Notes under the pieces: model-generated
Told to the model about the DNA's origin: nothing
The model's input: the letters and a program-made list of their open reading frames with translations, nothing else
Databases searched by the model: none
Program-made: the position numbers and the translations under genes
Shown here: piece by piece, positions 16,801 to 52,039 of the stretch
How positions within the stretch are numbered: position 1 is the stretch's first letter
How the letters are laid out: every line of letters begins with the position of its first letter
Source of the DNA: Cellulomonas humilata
GTDB lineage: Bacteria > Actinomycetota > Actinomycetes > Actinomycetales > Cellulomonadaceae
Direction: 5' to 3'
NCBI RefSeq assembly: GCF_013359775.1
Contig: NZ_JABMCI010000043.1
Coordinates: 1-64,000, forward strand
DNA: 64,000 bases

Positions 16801-17429
16801 TGCTGGTGCGCAGCCTGCCCGACCGGGCGGAGCTGCCCGTCGGCACGGAGGCCCTGGACGGGCTCACCGTCCCGCTGGGACCGGGGGGTGATGACGGCGG
16901 GACCCTGCGGGCCGACCTCACGCACGGTCTCCTCGTGGCGGGTCCGCCCGGGTCGGGCCGCAGCACCGTCCTGGCGGTCGTCTCGCGCTCGCTCGTGCGG
17001 GCGGGGGTGCGGGTGGTCCGGCTCGTGGACCCCGCGGGCGTCGCCCCGCCTCCGCTGCCCGGCGTGCGGGACAGCGGACCGGGGGACGTCCTGTCGACGT
17101 GCGAGCGGGAGGGTGCGGCCGTGCTCCTGGTCGACGACCTGGACGAGCTGGAGCGCAGCCATCCCGGGCTGCTCGGCGCGGCGCTCACGCCGAGCCTCGT
17201 GGCCACCGTCACGTCGGCGTCCGCGGCGCAGGCGTTCCGGGGCACCGTCCCCGCGCTGCTCCGACGCCGCCGGGTGCTCGTGCTGGACCCGCACGACCCG
17301 GCGTCGGCCGAGCTGGTGGGTCCCCGTGCGCCCTGGTGCGTCGACCCCCTGCGCCGGCCCCCGGGCCGCGGCGTGCTGCTCACGGGACGGGACGCGGTCG
17401 TCGTGCAGGTCTACTCCGGTGCGTCCTGA
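13809..17429 (+). CDS. EssC/EccC-like multi-domain FtsK/SpoIIIE ATPase, no type VII partners seen
   Basis: A 1206-residue protein. The first 180 or so residues are a beta-rich, FHA-like cytoplasmic region. Two hydrophobic helices follow (about 192-230). ATPase domain 1 has Walker A AGTTGAGKSE (about 488), Walker B LLVVVDEL (about 590) and ATQRP. Domains 2 and 3 are shorter, with GGPRSGRTT (about 800) and GPPGSGRST (about 1043); LLVDDLDEL in domain 3 serves as Walker B. The order FHA-like, TM pair, three ATPases is that of type VII secretion motors. No WXG100, EccB/D/E or mycosin gene is present in this window. GTG 13809 is the first start that leaves a sensible N-terminus. The family is sure; a secretion role is inference. 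Confidence 0.85.
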   Translation: MRFTLLHPDPARGPGLQTTDVEADVGTALSALRPALARVSGYPGWASTGVRPAVAAAVLDDHHTVGQPPLVEGCVLRAEPGPRTTVDVAVASAWHVAVTAGPDSGGVVAVPVDAAMTVGPAGSCLAVHDDTFPAVQVRHRRGRVQLRTGLLWRRWRTERPRRVGASTVVLRAAPDSSPGSRPAEPVPAARPATWLTPLVGSVALAVALRQPLLALAGLAVPLVGLGAAGVTRFRRRHGAGDDESVRDPAALVAATVRAALTGSDPATLDQPWDAGGSLAVVGPRALVLPVARAVVLGTLGTHLIGTLAVRTRHDTDWSWCVWVTAADAPLPHGPHEALVVADQPTDPAALARWRASAPPAHRLLVVAGSAAEVPAWCRARLEVGLRSVRLRDASGTVRDVPRHTLTAQRALDQVRAAVAVRAATDPVGTGAALPPRASLAALDGIPAPDRVSAVWAVPRSGLVAALGVGAGGRTVAVDLVADGPHVLVAGTTGAGKSELLTTLVLALALTHPPDRLAILLVDFKGGTGLGPVSGLPHVLEHVTDLDAAHARRVLTALRAELRRREHALAAEGARDLAELDPAAAGTPPRLLVVVDELRALTEDVPEAAAALTRIAAQGRALGVHLVLATQRPAGAVGADLRANVALRIALRVTDQADSTDVLDAPDAALIDPAVPGRAWVRRGTRSLEPVQVARAVLAPAAPTVRPARPWSSGGVGWSPDHPAVAQPVDDPVEVWVRAAVEASSGRPPGGRCPWLPALPPVVTRADVPDGPGLALGVSDLPDEQRRGAVRWDPSAGPLLVLGGPRSGRTTALLAAGLEALDQGWELHTVGLPPDAVRRLRAGDRQGRLGSTLQSDDPRSVARLLELAVASGRTRVLVLVDRLDLLLESLGGLARGAGAERLTALWRGNAGGPALAAGADVGAAVLRHAGSFAHRLVLPLPDATLDALAGVPGELAGRRTTAGRAVHVDAGGAELCQVVLPEPEHEPDRSRVSRDSAVLLVRSLPDRAELPVGTEALDGLTVPLGPGGDDGGTLRADLTHGLLVAGPPGSGRSTVLAVVSRSLVRAGVRVVRLVDPAGVAPPPLPGVRDSGPGDVLSTCEREGAAVLLVDDLDELERSHPGLLGAALTPSLVATVTSASAAQAFRGTVPALLRRRRVLVLDPHDPASAELVGPRAPWCVDPLRRPPGRGVLLTGRDAVVVQVYSGAS

Positions 17430-17806
17430 CGTCGCGCCGTCACCGCGACAACGGCCGGCAGCAGGAGCCCGACGCCGACGGCGACCGCGACGACGAGCAC
17501 GAGGGCCGCCCAGACCGTCGGCTCCGCCCCGAGCCAGCCGACCGCCAGGACCACGAGCAGGATCTGCCACATGATCACCGGCGACCGCGCCCAGCGCCGG
17601 CCGCGCCACAGGCCACGGGCCGCCAGCAGGAGCAGCAGCGCGATCCCGATCCCGAAGGCCGCGAGGAAGAGGCTCGCACCTGCCATCGTCGCGGTGCCGC
17701 GTACGACGTCGGCGATCCAGGCCACCCCCAGCCCGAGGAAGGCAGCGGCCTCCAGGGTCAGCAGGAGGCAGACGACGAGCAGGGCGACGGGTCGGCGGTC
17801 GGTCAC
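17411..17806 (-). CDS. Small four-helix membrane protein of unknown function
   Basis: A 131-residue protein with four hydrophobic segments, a basic loop (LWRGRRWARSP) after the second, and a short charged tail. I recognise no family beyond a generic actinobacterial integral membrane protein. The GTG start lies 7 nt after a TAGGCT hexamer, so it is probably leaderless. Its 3' end overlaps the convergent ATPase gene by 19 bp. Codon use matches the neighbours. Confidence 0.75.
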   Translation of the reverse strand: MTDRRPVALLVVCLLLTLEAAAFLGLGVAWIADVVRGTATMAGASLFLAAFGIGIALLLLLAARGLWRGRRWARSPVIMWQILLVVLAVGWLGAEPTVWAALVLVVAVAVGVGLLLPAVVAVTARRQDAPE

Positions 17807-17916
17807 GTGCCCGAGCCTAGGCAGGTCGGCGGCGCGGGGCCGCCCCCATGTGCGCTGACCTGCACCGACGTGACGAAAGACCCATTACCACGTCCGGAGC
17901 GTGTCTCACGCCACGA

Positions 17917-17932
17917 CGTGACGCTGCTCACC
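17917..17932. promoter_or_regulatory. CRP-like palindrome upstream of whiB1
   Basis: CGTGA-N6-TCACC fits the actinobacterial CRP consensus TGTGA-N6-TCACA at eight of ten core positions. In mycobacteria whiB1 is a direct CRP target, which is the reason to note this site about 265 bp before the start. It is a pattern match only. Confidence 0.35.
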
Positions 17933-17952
17933 GCCTACGACTGGCGCGGCGA

Positions 17953-18017
17953 CACGGACTTATGTCCTACACCGGCCCTCACCTGCACCAATACGCGGGA
18001 GCGATGCTCACACAGTC
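17953..18017 (+). repeat. Imperfect intergenic repeat, copy 1 (whiB1 upstream)
   Basis: Shares with 20680-20742, in the same order, CACGGAC-NN-ATGTCC, then T(C/G)ACCTGCAC, then GGGA(G/T)CG and a CACAC-ending block. Spacing between the first two blocks is 26 versus 24 nt. The DNA is non-coding in both places. Confidence 0.6.
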
Positions 18018-18196
18018 CACCCACAGGTGTGACGAACGCCTCAGCCGTTATCGACGTGAAACCTTCCCGTAACTCTTGTGGACTTGCCATACCGGTGCGA
18101 GCCTTGATGCAGCAAGTCACCCACCCCCGATCTCATGTCCAGACTCGCGCGCCCTGACCCAGGGTGCCGTCTCGACGTGTGCCTAGGAGAGATCTG

Positions 18197-18445
18197 ATGG
18201 ATTGGCGCCACCGCGCAGCGTGTCTCGACGAGGACCCGGAGCTGTTCTTCCCCATCGGCAACACCGGTCCCGCGTTGCTCCAGATCGACGAGGCGAAGGC
18301 TGTCTGCCGCCGCTGCCCCGTCGTCGACACCTGCCTCAAGTGGGCGATCGAGACCGGCCAGGACGCCGGCGTGTGGGGCGGGCTCTCCGAGGACGAGCGC
18401 CGCGCCCTCAAGCGCCGCACCGCGCGCCAGCGCCGCGCCGGCTGA
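18197..18445 (+). CDS. whiB1: WhiB1-type iron-sulfur transcriptional regulator
   Basis: An 82-residue Wbl protein nearly collinear with mycobacterial WhiB1, an essential [4Fe-4S], nitric-oxide-sensitive regulator that binds the principal sigma factor. The four cluster cysteines are Cys9, Cys37, Cys40 (CRRC) and Cys46. The GVWGG turn is at residues 58-62 and the basic KRRTARQRR tail binds DNA. An upstream in-frame start would add 11 residues, but AGGAGA lies 6 nt before ATG 18197 and the protein then begins MDWRHRA as in orthologues. It is convergent with pdtaS, as in mycobacteria. Confidence 0.97.
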   Translation: MDWRHRAACLDEDPELFFPIGNTGPALLQIDEAKAVCRRCPVVDTCLKWAIETGQDAGVWGGLSEDERRALKRRTARQRRAG

Positions 18446-18463
18446 CCTCCCGCCGCCCCGCTA

Positions 18464-18494
18464 CGGCCCCGCCGCGCACCGCGCTGCGGGGCCG
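18464..18494 (+). terminator. Hairpin terminator after whiB1
   Basis: A 9-bp perfect stem (CGGCCCCGC/GCGGGGCCG) with a 13-nt loop, 18 bp past the whiB1 stop and between convergent genes. Confidence 0.5.
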
Positions 18495-18506
18495 AGCCAC
18501 GTCTGC

Positions 18507-18553
18507 GCCGGTCAGACGAGCCGGTCAGATGAGCCGGTCAGATGAGCCGGTCA
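18507..18553. repeat. Short tandem repeat, 13-bp unit x3 plus partial
   Basis: Three consecutive 13-bp units (GACGAGCCGGTCA, then GATGAGCCGGTCA twice) are preceded by a partial GCCGGTCA. They lie between the whiB1 terminator and the pdtaS stop codon. Confidence 0.85.
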
Positions 18554-18556
18554 GGG

Positions 18557-20038
18557 TCAGATCAGTGCCGCCGCGTCCCGCGGTCCGCGCAGGCGCGCCT
18601 CGATGACCACCGACGTGCCGCCCCCGACGCGGCTCGACCACTCGATCGTGCCGCGCATCTCGTTGGTCACCAGCGTCGAGACGATCTGCGTCCCGAGCCC
18701 GGTGCCGGCGCCACGACCGGTCGGCAGGCCGGAGCCGTCGTCGGCCACCTCGACGCGCAGGGCGTCGTCCTGCCGCTCCACGATGACCTCGACGGTCCCC
18801 GACTCCCGCCCCTCGAACCCGTGCTCGACCGCGTTGGTCACCAGCTCGGTGAGGATCAGGGCGAGCGCGGTCGCGTCCTCCGCGGGGATCGAGCCGAACG
18901 ACCCGCGCACCAGCGTGCGCACGCTCGCGCCCTCGGTGGCCACGTCCGCGGCGAGCCGGAGGCTGCGACCGACCAGGTCGTCGAACGGCACGCTCTCGTC
19001 CAGGGTCTGCGACAGGGTCTCGTGCACGAGCGCGATCGTGGCGACCCGACGCATCGCCTCCCCCAGCGCCTCCTTGGCCTCGGGCGACGCGACCCGCCGT
19101 GACTGGAGCCGCAGCAGTGCGGCCACCGTCTGGAGGTTGTTCTTCACGCGGTGGTGGATCTCCCGGATCGTCGCGTCCTTGGTGATCAGCTCGCGCTCAC
19201 GACGACGCAGCTCGGACACGTCGCGGCACAGCAGGACCGCACCGACGCGCTGGCCGTGCTCGGTCAGCGGCACCGCGCGCAGGGAGAGGGCGACGCCGCG
19301 CGCCTCGACGTCCACCCGCCACGGCGCCCGCCCCATGAGCACCAGGGGCATCGACTCGTCGACGGTGTCGTGCTGCTCGATCAGGTCCGCGGTCACCTCG
19401 ACCAGCGACCGGCCCACCAGGTCGCCGACCACACCGAGCCGGTGGAAGCAGGACAGCGCGTTCGGGCTCGCGTACAGGACCTCGCCCTCCGAGTTCAGGC
19501 GGACGAGCCCGTCGCCCACGCGCGGGGCGCCGCGGCGCGGACCGGTCGGGGCGTCGGGCGCCGGGTACTCCCCGCGTCCCACCATCGCGAAGATGTCGTC
19601 GGCCGCCTCGACGTAGTTGAGCTCCAGGCGGCTGGGGGTGCGGGCGCCGCCGAGGTTGGTCTGGCGGGCGAGCACCGCGATCGGCTTGCCGCCGCGGACC
19701 ACCGGGACCGCCTCCTCGCGCACCGCGTAGGAGCCGAACCAGCGCGGCTCGCGGGAGCGCTGGGCGGTGCGCTCGTCCAGCGACCGCTGGAGCTGGGGGC
19801 GCTGGCCCTCGGGAGCGCTCGAGCCGACGACGTCGTCGTAGTGCACCGTGGCACCGGTGGACGGGCGGCACTGCGCGATGGCCACGAAGTCGCCGTCCGT
19901 CGTCGGCAGCCAGAGCACCAGGTCGGCGAACGCGAGGTCGGACAGCACCTGCCAGTCGCCGACGAGCAGGTGCAGCCACTCGAGGTCGTGGGCATCGAGC
20001 GCGGCGTGACGAGCGGCGAGGGTGCTCAGGGTGGACAC
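18557..20038 (-). CDS. pdtaS: PdtaS-type cytosolic sensor histidine kinase (HisKA_2)
   Basis: A soluble 493-residue kinase. An N-terminal GAF-like sensor covers about 1-150, a PAS domain about 175-275, then HisKA_2 with REIHHRVKNNLQTV (phospho-His about 296) and HATPase_c (LTELVTNAVEHGF, DDGSGLP, GLGTQIV). In mycobacteria PdtaS phosphorylates PdtaR, an ANTAR RNA-binding antiterminator, and responds to nitric oxide and copper. The pdtaR partner is not in this window. GTG 20038 sits 7 nt after a TAACCT hexamer (leaderless) and matches the family's N-terminus; the longer upstream frame is rejected. Confidence 0.95.
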   Translation of the reverse strand: MSTLSTLAARHAALDAHDLEWLHLLVGDWQVLSDLAFADLVLWLPTTDGDFVAIAQCRPSTGATVHYDDVVGSSAPEGQRPQLQRSLDERTAQRSREPRWFGSYAVREEAVPVVRGGKPIAVLARQTNLGGARTPSRLELNYVEAADDIFAMVGRGEYPAPDAPTGPRRGAPRVGDGLVRLNSEGEVLYASPNALSCFHRLGVVGDLVGRSLVEVTADLIEQHDTVDESMPLVLMGRAPWRVDVEARGVALSLRAVPLTEHGQRVGAVLLCRDVSELRRRERELITKDATIREIHHRVKNNLQTVAALLRLQSRRVASPEAKEALGEAMRRVATIALVHETLSQTLDESVPFDDLVGRSLRLAADVATEGASVRTLVRGSFGSIPAEDATALALILTELVTNAVEHGFEGRESGTVEVIVERQDDALRVEVADDGSGLPTGRGAGTGLGTQIVSTLVTNEMRGTIEWSSRVGGGTSVVIEARLRGPRDAAALI

Positions 20039-20149
20039 GGGCACCAGGTTAGGTGTCGTCTGGCGGAGCCAGGTGCACGAACTGCCAGGACGCCCGGGAC
20101 GTGGCCGGATAGCCTCGGACCCACCGACCCGATCTTCGAAGGACCCATC

Positions 20150-20668
20150 GTGCGACTGAGCGTGACGATCGACCTGCCGACCGACGCCCACGCCGCGGCA
20201 CGGCTGCTCGCCGACCCGGAGTACGTCCACCAGAAGGTGCGCGCCAGCGGTGCGCTCGAGCAGCACGTGGACATCACCGGCGCGCCCGACGAGGCCTTCA
20301 CCGTGACGACGCGCCGCGCCCTGCCGACGGACCAGATCCCCGCGCACCTGCGGGGCTTCGTCGGGAGCCGGATCGACATCCGGCAGGTGGAGGCCTGGGA
20401 GGGTCCCGCGGCGGACGGCTCCCGCGTGGGGACGGTGGTCGTGGAGATCACCGGCGCCCCGGTGCGGCTCAGCGGACGCACGGCGCTGGCGCCGGCCGGC
20501 GACGGCTCGACCACCGTCACGTACGACGGTGAGCTGCGCGCGAGCGTGCCCTTGTTCGGCTCCGCGATCGAGCAGGCGACGGCCGAGGCCATCCGCTCGG
20601 CCCTCGAGGTCGAGCAGGACGTGGCGCGCCGGTGGATCGCAGGTCACGGGCCGACGCCACAGCAGTAA
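20150..20668 (+). CDS. DUF2505 family protein
   Basis: A 172-residue soluble protein of the actinobacterial DUF2505 family, whose predicted fold resembles SRPBCC/START-like ligand-binding domains. It opens with a beta strand and helix (RLSVTIDLPTDAHAAARLLADPEYV), continues with strand-rich sequence and ends in an amphipathic helix (AIEQATAEAIRSALEVEQDVARRW). The GTG start follows GAAGGA by 6 nt, and TAGCCT upstream is a possible -10. It is divergent from pdtaS. No function is established for the family. Confidence 0.85.
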   Translation: MRLSVTIDLPTDAHAAARLLADPEYVHQKVRASGALEQHVDITGAPDEAFTVTTRRALPTDQIPAHLRGFVGSRIDIRQVEAWEGPAADGSRVGTVVVEITGAPVRLSGRTALAPAGDGSTTVTYDGELRASVPLFGSAIEQATAEAIRSALEVEQDVARRWIAGHGPTPQQ

Positions 20669-20680
20669 CGATTCGGTAAC
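20665..20680 (+). promoter_or_regulatory. GTnAC-N6-GTnAC direct repeat (MtrA-type box)
   Basis: GTAAC-GATTCG-GTAAC matches the direct-repeat site described for MtrA in actinobacteria. The first half overlaps the DUF2505 stop codon and the site lies 277 bp upstream of cebE. Pattern match only. Confidence 0.35.
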
Positions 20681-20742
20681 ACGGACCGATGTCCATATCG
20701 CTCTGACCTGCACAAACACTGGTGTGGGATCGCTACCACACG
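20680..20742 (+). repeat. Imperfect intergenic repeat, copy 2 (cebE upstream)
   Basis: Counterpart of 17953-18017, with CACGGAC-NN-ATGTCC, TGACCTGCAC at 20704-20713, and the GGGATCG...CACAC block. It lies just upstream of the putative cebE -35 element. Confidence 0.6.
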
Positions 20743-20762
20743 TAAACCGCCCATGTCCGTCC

Positions 20763-20791
20763 TTGACACTCGCGGGGGCGCCGACGACAGT
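20763..20791 (+). promoter_or_regulatory. Putative sigma-70-type promoter of cebEFG
   Basis: TTGACA (20763-20768), a 17-bp spacer, then GACAGT (20786-20791). The predicted start falls just before the palindromic operator at 20804, which would let a LacI-type repressor block initiation. The leader would be about 160 nt. Confidence 0.5.
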
Positions 20792-20803
20792 ATCCGCAGC
20801 GCG

Positions 20804-20817
20804 TGGGAACGCTCCCG
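20804..20817. promoter_or_regulatory. CebR/CelR-type operator
   Basis: TGGGAACGCTCCCG differs at two positions from the 14-bp TGGGAGCGCTCCCA site bound by CebR/CelR regulators of cellulolytic actinobacteria. A weaker match, TGGGAACGCGACCA, follows at 20830-20843. The position just downstream of the promoter fits cellobiose-relieved repression. Confidence 0.65.
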
Positions 20818-20956
20818 CATCACTGCGGATGGGAACGCGACCACGCCGGGTCCACACGGCCCAACCCGACGTCCGTTCGCGCCCCCTGCGGCGAGCAGAC
20901 GACGGGTGCCCTAGGGGTACGGCGAGGACGCCGTCCGACTGACAAGGGAGTCACCA

Positions 20957-22258
20957 GTGCGCAAGACCACTAGCAAGATGTGGGCGGCCGCGGCGGGGGT
21001 CACGGGCATCGCCCTCCTCGCAACCGCCTGCTCCGGCAACTCGGACACGCCCAGCGACGAGGGGTCCGACGGCGGCACCGAGAACATCACGCTGACGCTC
21101 GGCACGTTCAACGAGCCTGGCTACACCGACGAGATGTTCGCGGCGTACGAGGCCGAGAACCCGGGCGTCACCATCGAGAACAAGAAGGCCGCGACCTCGA
21201 ACGAGGCCCGCGACAACCTGAACACGCGCCTCGCGTCGGGTTCTGGTGCCTCGGACGTCGAGATGATCGAGATCGACTGGCTCCCCGAGCTCATGCAGTT
21301 CCCCGAGAAGTTCGAGGACCTGGCGGACCCGGCGCTCGACGGTCGCTGGAAGGACTGGAAGGTCGCTCAGGCCACGACGCCCGACGGCAAGCTCCTCGGC
21401 TACGGCACCGACATCGGCCCGGAGGCCATCGCGTTCCGCGGCGACCTGCTCGCCGCTGCCGGCCTGCCGTCCACGCGTGAGGAGGTCGCCGCCGAGCTCG
21501 GCGGCGCCGACGCCACGTGGGACGACTACTTCGCCTTCGGCAAGCGGTACACCGACGCCACGGGCAAGCCGTTCTTCGACGCCGCTGGTGCCATCTACCA
21601 GGGCATGATCAACCAGGTCGAGAACGCCTACGAGGAGAACGACGGCACGATCATCGCCGCCACGAACCCCGAGGTGAAGGACATCTACGACGCCGTCACC
21701 AAGGCCTCGGTCACCGACAACCTGTCGGCGCACCTCGGCCAGTGGAGCGACGACTGGACGGCCTCGTTCCAGACGGACGGCTTCGCGACCATGCTGGCGC
21801 CGGGCTGGATGCTCGGTGTCATCGAGGGCAACTCCGCCGGCATCACCGGCTGGGACATCGCTGACGTCTTCCCCGGCGGCGCCGGCAACTGGGGCGGCTC
21901 GTTCATGACCGTCCCGTCGCAGGGCAAGAACGTCGAGGCCGCGAAGAAGTTCGCCGCCTGGCTGACGGCCCCGGAGCAGCAGCTCCAGGCCTACAAGAAC
22001 AAGGGCACGTTCCCGAGCCAGGTCGAGGCGCTCGCCTCGGACGAGCTGCTCGGCTCCACGAACGCGTTCTTCAACGACGCCCCGGCCGGCCAGATCCTGG
22101 CCAACCGCGCCGAGGGCATCATCGCCCCGTTCAAGGGCCCGAACTACTTCGCCATCAACGACGCGATGCAGTCGGCTCTGACCGAGGTCGACGTCAACGG
22201 TGGTGACGCCGCTGCTCAGTGGGACACCTTCGTGAGCGCGGTCAACGCGCTCGGCTGA
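20957..22258 (+). CDS. cebE: Cello-oligosaccharide ABC transporter substrate-binding lipoprotein (CebE-like)
   Basis: A 433-residue family 1 solute-binding protein. The lipoprotein signal is ATAC with Cys25 as the lipid anchor. The mature protein starts with an acidic, Ser/Gly-rich linker and has the two-lobed pattern of CUT1 sugar binders. Sequence and operon resemble Streptomyces CebE, which binds cellobiose and cellotriose. The start GTG has AAGGGAG before it. Two permeases follow after a strong hairpin at 22269. A CebR-type operator precedes the gene and a LacI regulator closes the cluster. Cellodextrin specificity is inferred from context. Confidence 0.85.
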   Translation: MRKTTSKMWAAAAGVTGIALLATACSGNSDTPSDEGSDGGTENITLTLGTFNEPGYTDEMFAAYEAENPGVTIENKKAATSNEARDNLNTRLASGSGASDVEMIEIDWLPELMQFPEKFEDLADPALDGRWKDWKVAQATTPDGKLLGYGTDIGPEAIAFRGDLLAAAGLPSTREEVAAELGGADATWDDYFAFGKRYTDATGKPFFDAAGAIYQGMINQVENAYEENDGTIIAATNPEVKDIYDAVTKASVTDNLSAHLGQWSDDWTASFQTDGFATMLAPGWMLGVIEGNSAGITGWDIADVFPGGAGNWGGSFMTVPSQGKNVEAAKKFAAWLTAPEQQLQAYKNKGTFPSQVEALASDELLGSTNAFFNDAPAGQILANRAEGIIAPFKGPNYFAINDAMQSALTEVDVNGGDAAAQWDTFVSAVNALG

Positions 22259-24429: not shown

Positions 24430-25470
24430 GTGGTCGACAACATCCCGGTCCACGTGGACCCCGCGCGGCCCCCCGCGCCGACGCTCGAGCAGGTCGCCGA
24501 GCGCGCCGGCGTCTCGCGCTCGACAGCCTCTCGCGCCATCAACGGCGGGCTGCGCGTGTCTCCCGAGGCGCTCGCCTCGGTCGAGGCCGCGGTCGCCGAT
24601 CTCGGCTACACGCCGAACCGCGCCGCCCGCTCGCTCGTCACCAAGCGCACCGACTCGATCGCGCTGGTGGTCCCCGAGCCCGACGAGCGCGTGCTCTCGG
24701 ACCCGTTCTTCGCCGGCACGCTCAACGGCCTGAGCACGTCGCTCGCCGACTCCGACATGCAGGTCGTGCTGGTCATCGCCCGCCCGGGCGAGAGCGAGCG
24801 CACGGTCCGGTACCTACGCAACGGGCACGTGGACGGGGCGATCGTCGTCTCGCACCACGCCAACGACGAGCTCGACCGGGCGCTCCAGCTCTCGCACGTG
24901 CCCAACGTGTTCGTCGGTCGCCCCCTGTCCGCGGACGAGCGGGACGTGCAGTACGTCGACACCGACAACGTCGAGGGCGGTCGGCTGGCCACGCAGCACC
25001 TCATCGACCGCGGCTGCACGCGCATCGCCACGATCGCGGGACCGGCGGACATGTCCGCCGGCATCGACCGGCTCACGGGGTGGCGCAACGCCATCCGCGC
25101 GGCCGGGATGTCCGACGACGCGGTGGTGCACGGCGACTTCACCATGGCGTCCGGCACCATCGCGGCGCGCGAGCTGCTGGCGCGGTACCCCGACGTCGAC
25201 GCGATCTTCATCGCGTCCGACCTCATGGCCGCCGGGGCGCTCAGCGTCCTCGCGGAGCACGGCAAGGAGGTGCCGCGGGACGTCGCGGTGGTCGGGTACG
25301 ACAACCTCGGTGTCGCGGCGTCGACCACTCCCCCGCTGACCAGCGTCATCCAGCCGGTCGTGGCCATGGCGCGTGCGGCGGGTGCTCGGCTGCTCGACCA
25401 GCTCAACGGCGCGCCGCCGTCGCCGCCCCTGATCTTCGCCCCGGAGCTGGTCATCCGCGCCTCGGCGTAG
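24430..25470 (+). CDS. cebR: LacI-family regulator of the cebEFG operon (CebR-like)
   Basis: A 346-residue repressor. The N-terminal LacI helix-turn-helix is TLEQVAERAGVSRSTASRAING, with hinge LGYTPNRAARSL. A periplasmic-binding-like effector domain of about 270 residues follows (ALVVPEPDERV...VGYDNLG). The frame opens 60 codons earlier, inside the end of cebG, but an AGGAGGGA ribosome-binding site about 9 nt before GTG 24430 and the family N-terminus set the start. It lies directly after the transporter it probably controls. The 20804 operator is its likely target and cellobiose its likely inducer, by analogy with Streptomyces CebR. Confidence 0.9.
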   Translation: MVDNIPVHVDPARPPAPTLEQVAERAGVSRSTASRAINGGLRVSPEALASVEAAVADLGYTPNRAARSLVTKRTDSIALVVPEPDERVLSDPFFAGTLNGLSTSLADSDMQVVLVIARPGESERTVRYLRNGHVDGAIVVSHHANDELDRALQLSHVPNVFVGRPLSADERDVQYVDTDNVEGGRLATQHLIDRGCTRIATIAGPADMSAGIDRLTGWRNAIRAAGMSDDAVVHGDFTMASGTIAARELLARYPDVDAIFIASDLMAAGALSVLAEHGKEVPRDVAVVGYDNLGVAASTTPPLTSVIQPVVAMARAAGARLLDQLNGAPPSPPLIFAPELVIRASA

Positions 25471-44645: not shown

Positions 44646-44677
44646 GACCTGCCCCGTCAACGGTGACGGTGCAGGTC
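44646..44677. repeat. Inverted repeat containing GTGCAGGTC arms
   Basis: A 14-bp near-perfect stem (one mismatch, arm GACCTGCCCCGTCA) with a 4-nt ACGG loop. The outer arms extend to TGACCTGC and GCAGGTCA, the same core as the motif upstream of whiB1 and cebE. It lies about 80 bp before the membrane protein start. Confidence 0.65.
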
Positions 44678-44755
44678 AACGGACTCTTGGGCGGCCATCT
44701 ACCGGCAGCACTGCTGGAGCGGATCCGCTCCGCCAGTCACCACGACGAGGTGGTC

Positions 44756-51656: not shown

Positions 51657-52039
51657 CGTCCGACCTCGACGAGTCCGTCGGTCACCCGGACGTGCCAGGT
51701 GCGCAGGTCAGGGCTGAGCCCGCGCGCGGGGACCTTGCCGGCGACGTCCAGGCAGCGGCCCGTCGTGAGGTCGAACACCTGCTTGTACATCGGGGAGGCG
51801 ACCGTCGGGACCTCGACCTCGTCGACGAACCGCGATCCGACGATGCCCCGCGAGATCACGTGCGCGTCGCTGAACGGGTCGTGCTGCTGGACCGCCAGCA
51901 CGCGGCCGTCCAGCAGGCGGAACAGGGCGACCTGCTCCCCGTCGAGGAGCGCGGCGACGCCCCGCTCGGGCGCCAGGTCGTCCAGACGGCACACGGTGGT
52001 CCACACAGCGGTGTCCAGCGTGGTCTCCAGCGCGGTCAT
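51653..52039 (-). CDS. nirD: Nitrite reductase (NADH) small subunit NirD
   Basis: A 128-residue Rieske-fold subunit of assimilatory nitrite reductase. It opens WTTVCRLDDLAPERGVAAL and contains DGRVLAVQQHDPFS, GIVGSR, PMYKQVFDLTTGRCL and a final GLVEVGR. As is common in NirD, the cluster-binding His/Cys pairs of true Rieske proteins are missing. ATG overlaps the nirB stop (ATGA), and the longer frame into nirB is rejected. Confidence 0.95.
   Translation of the reverse strand: MTALETTLDTAVWTTVCRLDDLAPERGVAALLDGEQVALFRLLDGRVLAVQQHDPFSDAHVISRGIVGSRFVDEVEVPTVASPMYKQVFDLTTGRCLDVAGKVPARGLSPDLRTWHVRVTDGLVEVGR

Follow-up and report, generated by a model that had tools for sequence, protein, structure and literature searches.

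Global regulators such as CtrA, Fis, MtrA and AdpA have sites across the whole chromosome, including the origin of replication (oriC). The operator of CebR is TGGGAGCGCTCCCA, and the DevR/DosR-type box is GGGACnnnnGTCCC. Passages of published studies on other actinobacteria assign GTnAC-type repeats to GlnR or MtrA (PMC10704036, PMC6265350, PMC13189361), give GTnAC-n6-GTnAC and gTnAc-n6-GaAAc as box forms (PMC10704036) and place whiB1 among the MtrA targets of Mycobacterium tuberculosis and Streptomyces venezuelae (PMC5487470). Here we describe a 16-bp motif upstream of two genes of Cellulomonas humilata, whiB1 and a cebE-like gene for a sugar-binding lipoprotein. Both lie in a 64-kb window, the whole stretch of DNA that was analysed, which is part of a 4.65-Mb genome in 71 contigs.

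The motif, CTGACCTGCRNNRAYR, is asymmetric, and we consider it a putative protein-binding site of a chromosome-wide DNA-binding regulator, with a probability of roughly 70%. Part of it had been noticed in a sequence-only reading of the window, which described two copies of a ~65-bp element made of three blocks, CACGGAC-N2-ATGTCC, T[CG]ACCTGCAC and GGGA[GT]CG..CACAC. These are present, in that order, at 17953-18017 upstream of whiB1 and at 20680-20742 upstream of cebE, and the middle block is part of the 16-mer. The shared signal is these 16 bp, found genome-wide, rather than a 65-bp module. Read from three loci, the motif is CTGACCTGC-R-NN-R-A-Y-R, with a C at position 1 and its second part at positions 11-15. 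Sites of AraC- and OmpR-type regulators have two recognition parts one helical turn apart; in the 16-mer the conserved parts are positions 1-9 and 13-16. A regulator site is supported by a copy number of about 30 per genome that greatly exceeds that of the reversed pattern, by retention at whiB1, cebE and oriC, and, upstream of cebE, by a fixed spacing both to GTAAC-N6-GTAAC and, on the opposite side, to a LacI-type palindrome.

The genome of the window holds 31 copies of the 16-mer and 2 of the reversed pattern, a control that is not codon-matched; in four congeners the two counts are 24 and 2, 26 and 1, 14 and 0, and 27 and 0. For CTGACCTGCAC alone the counts are 29 and 2 in our genome and 20/7, 21/1, 10/4, 12/4, 5/3, 13/3, 12/7 and 14/4 in eight congeners. 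Two genomes from a different family of the order have 16/4 and 10/1, and the larger genomes within the same class mostly exceed the reversed count 1.5-2 fold. A weight matrix built without the sites of our genome gave, at a score of at least 16 over 860,641 of its bases, 28 matches against 7 for the reversed matrix. In the non-coding part of that sequence the counts were 15 and 1, with crude gene calls that left 22% of it non-coding and masked the cebE site itself by a spurious call. Two weaker matrix matches lie on the minus strand of the window, at 44664-44679 (TTGACCTGCACCGTCA, score 18.5) and 51696-51711 (CTGACCTGCGCACCTG, score 14.8). Within the window TSACCTGCAC is also above chance, with 4 seen and 0.33 expected, a number reached by none of 100 shuffles.

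Conservation was followed at three loci. Of 60 genomes, our whiB1 sample comprises 20, all of the genus and our own included, which were near enough in DNA to match a query placed one base out of frame (18198, not 18197); all 20 loci begin MDWRH in the correct frame, but nearer relatives are over-represented in the whiB1 counts. Another search with the same query matched 1 of 39 genomes, our own. For cebE, 47 genomes matched; the 30 best were kept, and upstream regions were aligned for 20 of these. TSACCTG occurs on either strand in 19/20 whiB1 and 26/30 cebE regions (shuffles, mean 1.7 and 2.0, maximum 6 each; reversed pattern, 2/20 and 0/30). For the origin, the best 30 of 40 dnaN loci left 29 dnaA-dnaN gaps, one having been dropped when its dnaA end was not found. 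The core is present in 23 of these, in a single orientation throughout (reversed, 0; shuffles, mean 1.5, maximum 6). Two or more copies stand in 9 of the 29 gaps, and our own gap (contig C68, locus L384) has two, 582 and 251 bases before dnaN. Sites were found by the core [CT][CT][CG]ACCTG[CG] alone, positions 14-16 being left out; at those positions WYR follows in 50/51 distinct cebE, 26/27 whiB1 and 32/39 oriC sites, compared with 0-10 at the other offsets counted.

Upstream of cebE the motif stands within an ordered array of boxes:

20665-20680, plus strand: GTAAC-N6-GTAAC direct repeat of the MtrA/GlnR-box type, over the stop codon of the gene before cebE (DUF2505)
20683-20694, plus strand: GGACCGATGTCC, the first block (CACGGACNNATGTCC in 8/30 cebE regions, those of the nearest relatives)
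20703-20718, plus strand: 16-mer site CTGACCTGCACAAACA, the middle block
20724-20739, plus strand: palindrome GTGGGATCGCTACCAC of the LacI/CebR-operator type, the third block
20804-20816, plus strand: TGGGAACGCTCCC, a second CebR-type operator, downstream of a -35-like TTGACA at 20763 and kept in the aligned cebE regions
20957-22258, plus strand: open reading frame of the cebE-like sugar-binding lipoprotein (Pfam SBP_bac_8, E 7.7e-29)
24430-25470, plus strand: open reading frame of a LacI-family regulator behind the transporter genes, a candidate CebR (Pfam LacI PF00356, E 1.3e-13)

The first of these boxes, as GTNAC-N6-GTNAC, is found in 22/30 cebE regions. From the start of the GTAAC repeat to the start of the 16-mer the distance is 38 bp in 32 of the 38 regions that have both, and 36-37 bp in the other 6. 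Of 53 distances between the start of the 16-mer and that of the palindrome after it, 41 are 21 bp, 6 are 42-43 bp and the last 6 are 99-125 bp; these counts pool the 30 cebE regions with 80 named loci that share genomes with them, duplicates included. As 21 and 42 bp correspond to two and four helical turns, the spacing suggests that the proteins at cebE sit on one face of the DNA. The composite operator proposed in the sequence-only reading fits the cebE side, where direct repeat, 16-mer and LacI-type palindrome keep their spacing, and fails as a three-block unit shared with whiB1. Among the 80 named loci the cebE 16-mer is found in 37, compared with 2 for the reversed pattern; it is present in some and absent from other Arthrobacter, Cellulosimicrobium and Isoptericola. 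One record, titled Vibrio cholerae strain 35D (L225), carries an Arthrobacter-like cebE locus and is probably a mislabelled or contaminated assembly.

The region upstream of whiB1 is built differently:

17855-17870, plus strand: 16-mer site 1, CTGACCTGCACCGACG (TGACCTGCAC here in 7/20 whiB1 regions)
17949-17964, plus strand: decayed 16-mer, seen in the alignment of 20 whiB1 regions (the first block)
17978-17993, plus strand: 16-mer site 3, CTCACCTGCACCAATA, the middle block (CTCACCTGC here in 8/20 whiB1 regions)
18047-18073, plus strand: GTTAT-N6-GAAAC-N6-GTAAC direct repeat of the MtrA/GlnR-box type, in the whiB1 promoter region
18197-18445, plus strand: whiB1, WhiB family (Pfam PF02467, E 1.7e-27)
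18560-20041, minus strand: gene of a PdtaS-type histidine kinase, flanked by whiB1 and the DUF2505 gene

Two intact 16-mers thus precede whiB1 in our genome, at 17855 and 17978, and the first of them contains the third copy of TGACCTGCAC that had been reported earlier and is confirmed at 17856-17865. Since congeners read CGACCTGGACTTTCGTCC (genome G077, of the same genus), CTGACCTGGACGTTCG or CTGACCTGGACGTATG at the place of the first block, this block is, to judge from their letters, a decayed copy of the middle block's motif. The direct repeat is kept as GT[TC]A[CT]-N6-GAAAC-N6-GTAAC in 20/20 whiB1 regions. Among the 80 named loci, whiB1 was found in 30, at a distance of 2.6-3.0 kb on the upstream side of cebE. 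An inverted TGACCT pair (AGGTCAG...CTGACCT) is seen upstream of whiB1 in some congeners (loci L016, L012, L018, L020 and L021).

Further copies are found beside stable-RNA genes. We surveyed 101 sites in five genomes (30 of 31 in our own; 24/26, 22/24, 13/27 and 12/14 in the congeners), and 14 of them start 2-5 bp behind the 3' end of a transfer RNA (tRNA) or transfer-messenger RNA (tmRNA) gene. Of these, 11 run opposite to the RNA gene and 3 in its direction, and several are orthologous to one another. In our genome such sites follow tRNA-Asn, tRNA-Arg (twice) and tRNA-Ser, all in the opposite orientation (L287, L292, L293 and L298), and in its scanned part 2 of 10 tRNA 3' flanks carry the 16-mer. 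One more copy lies 13 bp behind rnpB. Single cases upstream of mraZ and behind glnA were also observed; the flanking gene names mraZ, glnA, crgA and typA were assigned by eye, with no family search.

How might such a site be read? As CTGAC (positions 1-5) and SNRAY (positions 11-15) resemble a 10-bp direct repeat, one protein with two tandem helix-turn-helix heads would probably read CTGAC and then SNRAY 10 bp further on. A response regulator of the OmpR/PhoB type or an AraC-type protein would be the candidate kinds. It may act from far upstream, as an activator or as an architectural factor. At cebE the putative regulator would work alongside MtrA or GlnR and against CebR, and at whiB1 it would work through the two intact copies and the decayed one. 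Simple activation does not account for the sites at tRNA 3' ends, where the protein might have an architectural or roadblock role. Among individual proteins, mIHF was rejected as the binder on a chromatin immunoprecipitation study whose relevant passages report no common motif (PMC6155035). McdR and WhiB2 were also rejected, their motifs, as given in passages of PMC9040748, being unlike the 16-mer.

Several observations weigh against a regulator site. The excess is low in some congeners (5 against 3 and 12 against 7 for the 11-mer), and the sequences compared are related, so that the counts are not independent. Set against the sites fetched from four congeners, 20 of 30 distinct sites in our genome can be paired with one at a similar position; some of the 20 are in coding sequence, four come from one repeated locus, and one pairing depends on a short match in a tRNA region. 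The remaining 10 are unpaired, as are 36 of the 77 congener sites, so turnover is high. At whiB1 the copies vary in place among congeners, and the 16-mer is largely limited to Cellulomonas (13/30 named loci, 12 of the 13 in that genus). Six of the 53 palindrome spacings at cebE, those of 99-125 bp, are off the pattern, and sites right behind tRNA 3' ends are not what one expects of a regulator of promoters.

The alternative that fares best, which we regard as unlikely, takes the 16-mer for a binding site of MtrA itself, in a form specific to this lineage. Known MtrA targets include oriC, dnaA, dnaN and whiB1, according to passages of PMC5487470, and the 16-mer is present at oriC and at whiB1, in the 23 gaps and 19 regions counted above. 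A strict GTNAC-N6-G[TA]NAC was not found in the dnaA-dnaN gaps, and the CTGAC of the 16-mer is similar to GTnAC. The boxes described in passages of PMC6265350 and PMC13189361, however, are GTnAC-like direct repeats with an 11-bp period, whereas the 16-mer begins with a C and has a period of 10 bp; GTnAC half-sites 11 bp apart were not found in it. Moreover, typical GTnAC repeats adjoin the 16-mer at both cebE and whiB1. Because letters and spacing do not fit MtrA boxes and true GTnAC-type repeats stand next to the motif, we leave the putative regulator unnamed and do not adopt MtrA.

It appears improbable that the 16-mer is a mobile or extragenic repeat dispersed in the genome, or the signal of a small RNA or an RNA 3' end, with no regulator involved. 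Such a repeat or signal would account for the sites behind tRNA and tmRNA genes and rnpB, and for the presence of the 16-mer in repeated loci. Yet the sites stand in both orientations relative to the RNA gene, whiB1, cebE and oriC have the 16-mer alone in common while their flanks differ, and the spacing to the neighbouring boxes at cebE is constant. The small RNA module suggested in the sequence-only reading is likewise unsupported, as no Rfam family matched up to an E-value of 5 in 17000-21500, which covers both stretches. The repeated loci are four near-identical upstream regions (L059, L064, L082 and L113), three of them near contig ends, in which the 16-mer lies a few bases before a promoter-like stretch.

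That one ~65-bp composite operator or repeat module is common to whiB1 and cebE is more doubtful still. Its three blocks do share their order, and in a gapped local alignment the two stretches score 33, a value never reached when the two intergenic regions were dinucleotide-shuffled 1000 times (mean 20.8, maximum 32). When the whiB1 stretch was compared with 5,080 windows of 101 bases, scores above 27 fell only over the cebE stretch. This is modest support, because many intergenic pairs could have been chosen. In the relatives the unit comes apart. The first block as written is found upstream of whiB1 in 1/20 regions, that of our own genome, and upstream of cebE in 8/30, and the third block in 1/20 and 4/30, whereas T[CG]ACCTG is found on the plus strand in 18/20 and 26/30. 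The first two blocks taken together, as GGACNNATGTCC-N5..15-ACCTGCAC, have two matches in our genome, exactly at the two stretches, and are found in 0/57 other genomes searched, and the cebE palindrome, searched as GTGG-N8-CCAC, is in 0/20 whiB1 regions. The three-block element was therefore rejected as a unit, its outer blocks being unshared in congeners, and the idea of a 65-bp module is corrected by the 16-mer. Of what had been proposed for this DNA, the observation is partly confirmed and the interpretation partly supported: a dispersed non-coding signal common to both upstream regions was correct, and among the blocks expected in close relatives only the middle one was kept at both loci.

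That the similarity is due to chance, CTGACCTGC being frequent through codon-usage bias, can practically be dismissed, for although the reversed control is not codon-matched and 11 of 30 sites in our genome fall within the crude gene calls, the excess persists in non-coding sequence (15 against 1) and the place is kept in 23/29 oriC gaps and 26/30 cebE regions.

We return, then, to the site of a chromosome-wide regulator. Searches of the literature by sequence strings (judged by title, among the papers listed) and by topic, with most subscription journals out of reach, found no description of such a site. We tentatively put forward the more specific possibility that the 16-mer belongs to an undescribed global regulator of Micrococcales, acting at oriC, at the ends of stable-RNA genes, at whiB1 and at sugar-uptake promoters. 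With the 16-mer kept at oriC, at a WhiB-family gene and at a cellobiose-type uptake promoter, a regulon would be outlined ahead of its regulator.

GGAC-N4-GTCC, found in both stretches, resembles a DevR/DosR box, but it is present in only 9/20 whiB1 and 10/30 cebE regions and at whiB1 overlaps the decayed 16-mer. It was rejected as a DevR-like box, since GGACNNATGTCC with one mismatch allowed is not above chance in the window (4 seen, 5.4 expected). The LacI-family CebR/CelR operator has its likeness at cebE: GTGGGATCGCTACCAC is a CG-centred palindrome that shares 12 of 14 letters with TGGGAGCGCTCCCA, it lies upstream of cebE with a LacI-family gene at 24430-25470, and GTGGRANCGCTNCCAC is present in 24/30 cebE regions. 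It explains the third block at cebE only, GTGGRANCGCTNCCAC being found in 0/20 whiB1 regions. No CebR entry was found in the passages of a LacI-family review that were available (PMC4052901). The direct repeats at 20665-20680 and 18047-18073 have the form published, in the passages cited above, for MtrA/GlnR (and AfsQ1-like) boxes, with GTnAC or GAAAC half-sites and a 6-bp spacer. The 16-mer differs from these in its other letters and in its 10-bp rather than 11-bp spacing, and the repeats lie beside it, not within it. The 16-mer is like the sites of CtrA, Fis, MtrA and AdpA in numbering tens of copies and in standing at the origin and near genes related to growth, while its letters are unlike their motifs. 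If the origin is controlled by the putative regulator, this order would have an origin-binding regulator beside MtrA. If the wider proposal holds, a global regulator would tie the start of replication and growth capacity to nutrient supply, in a role comparable with that of CtrA or Fis in proteobacteria.

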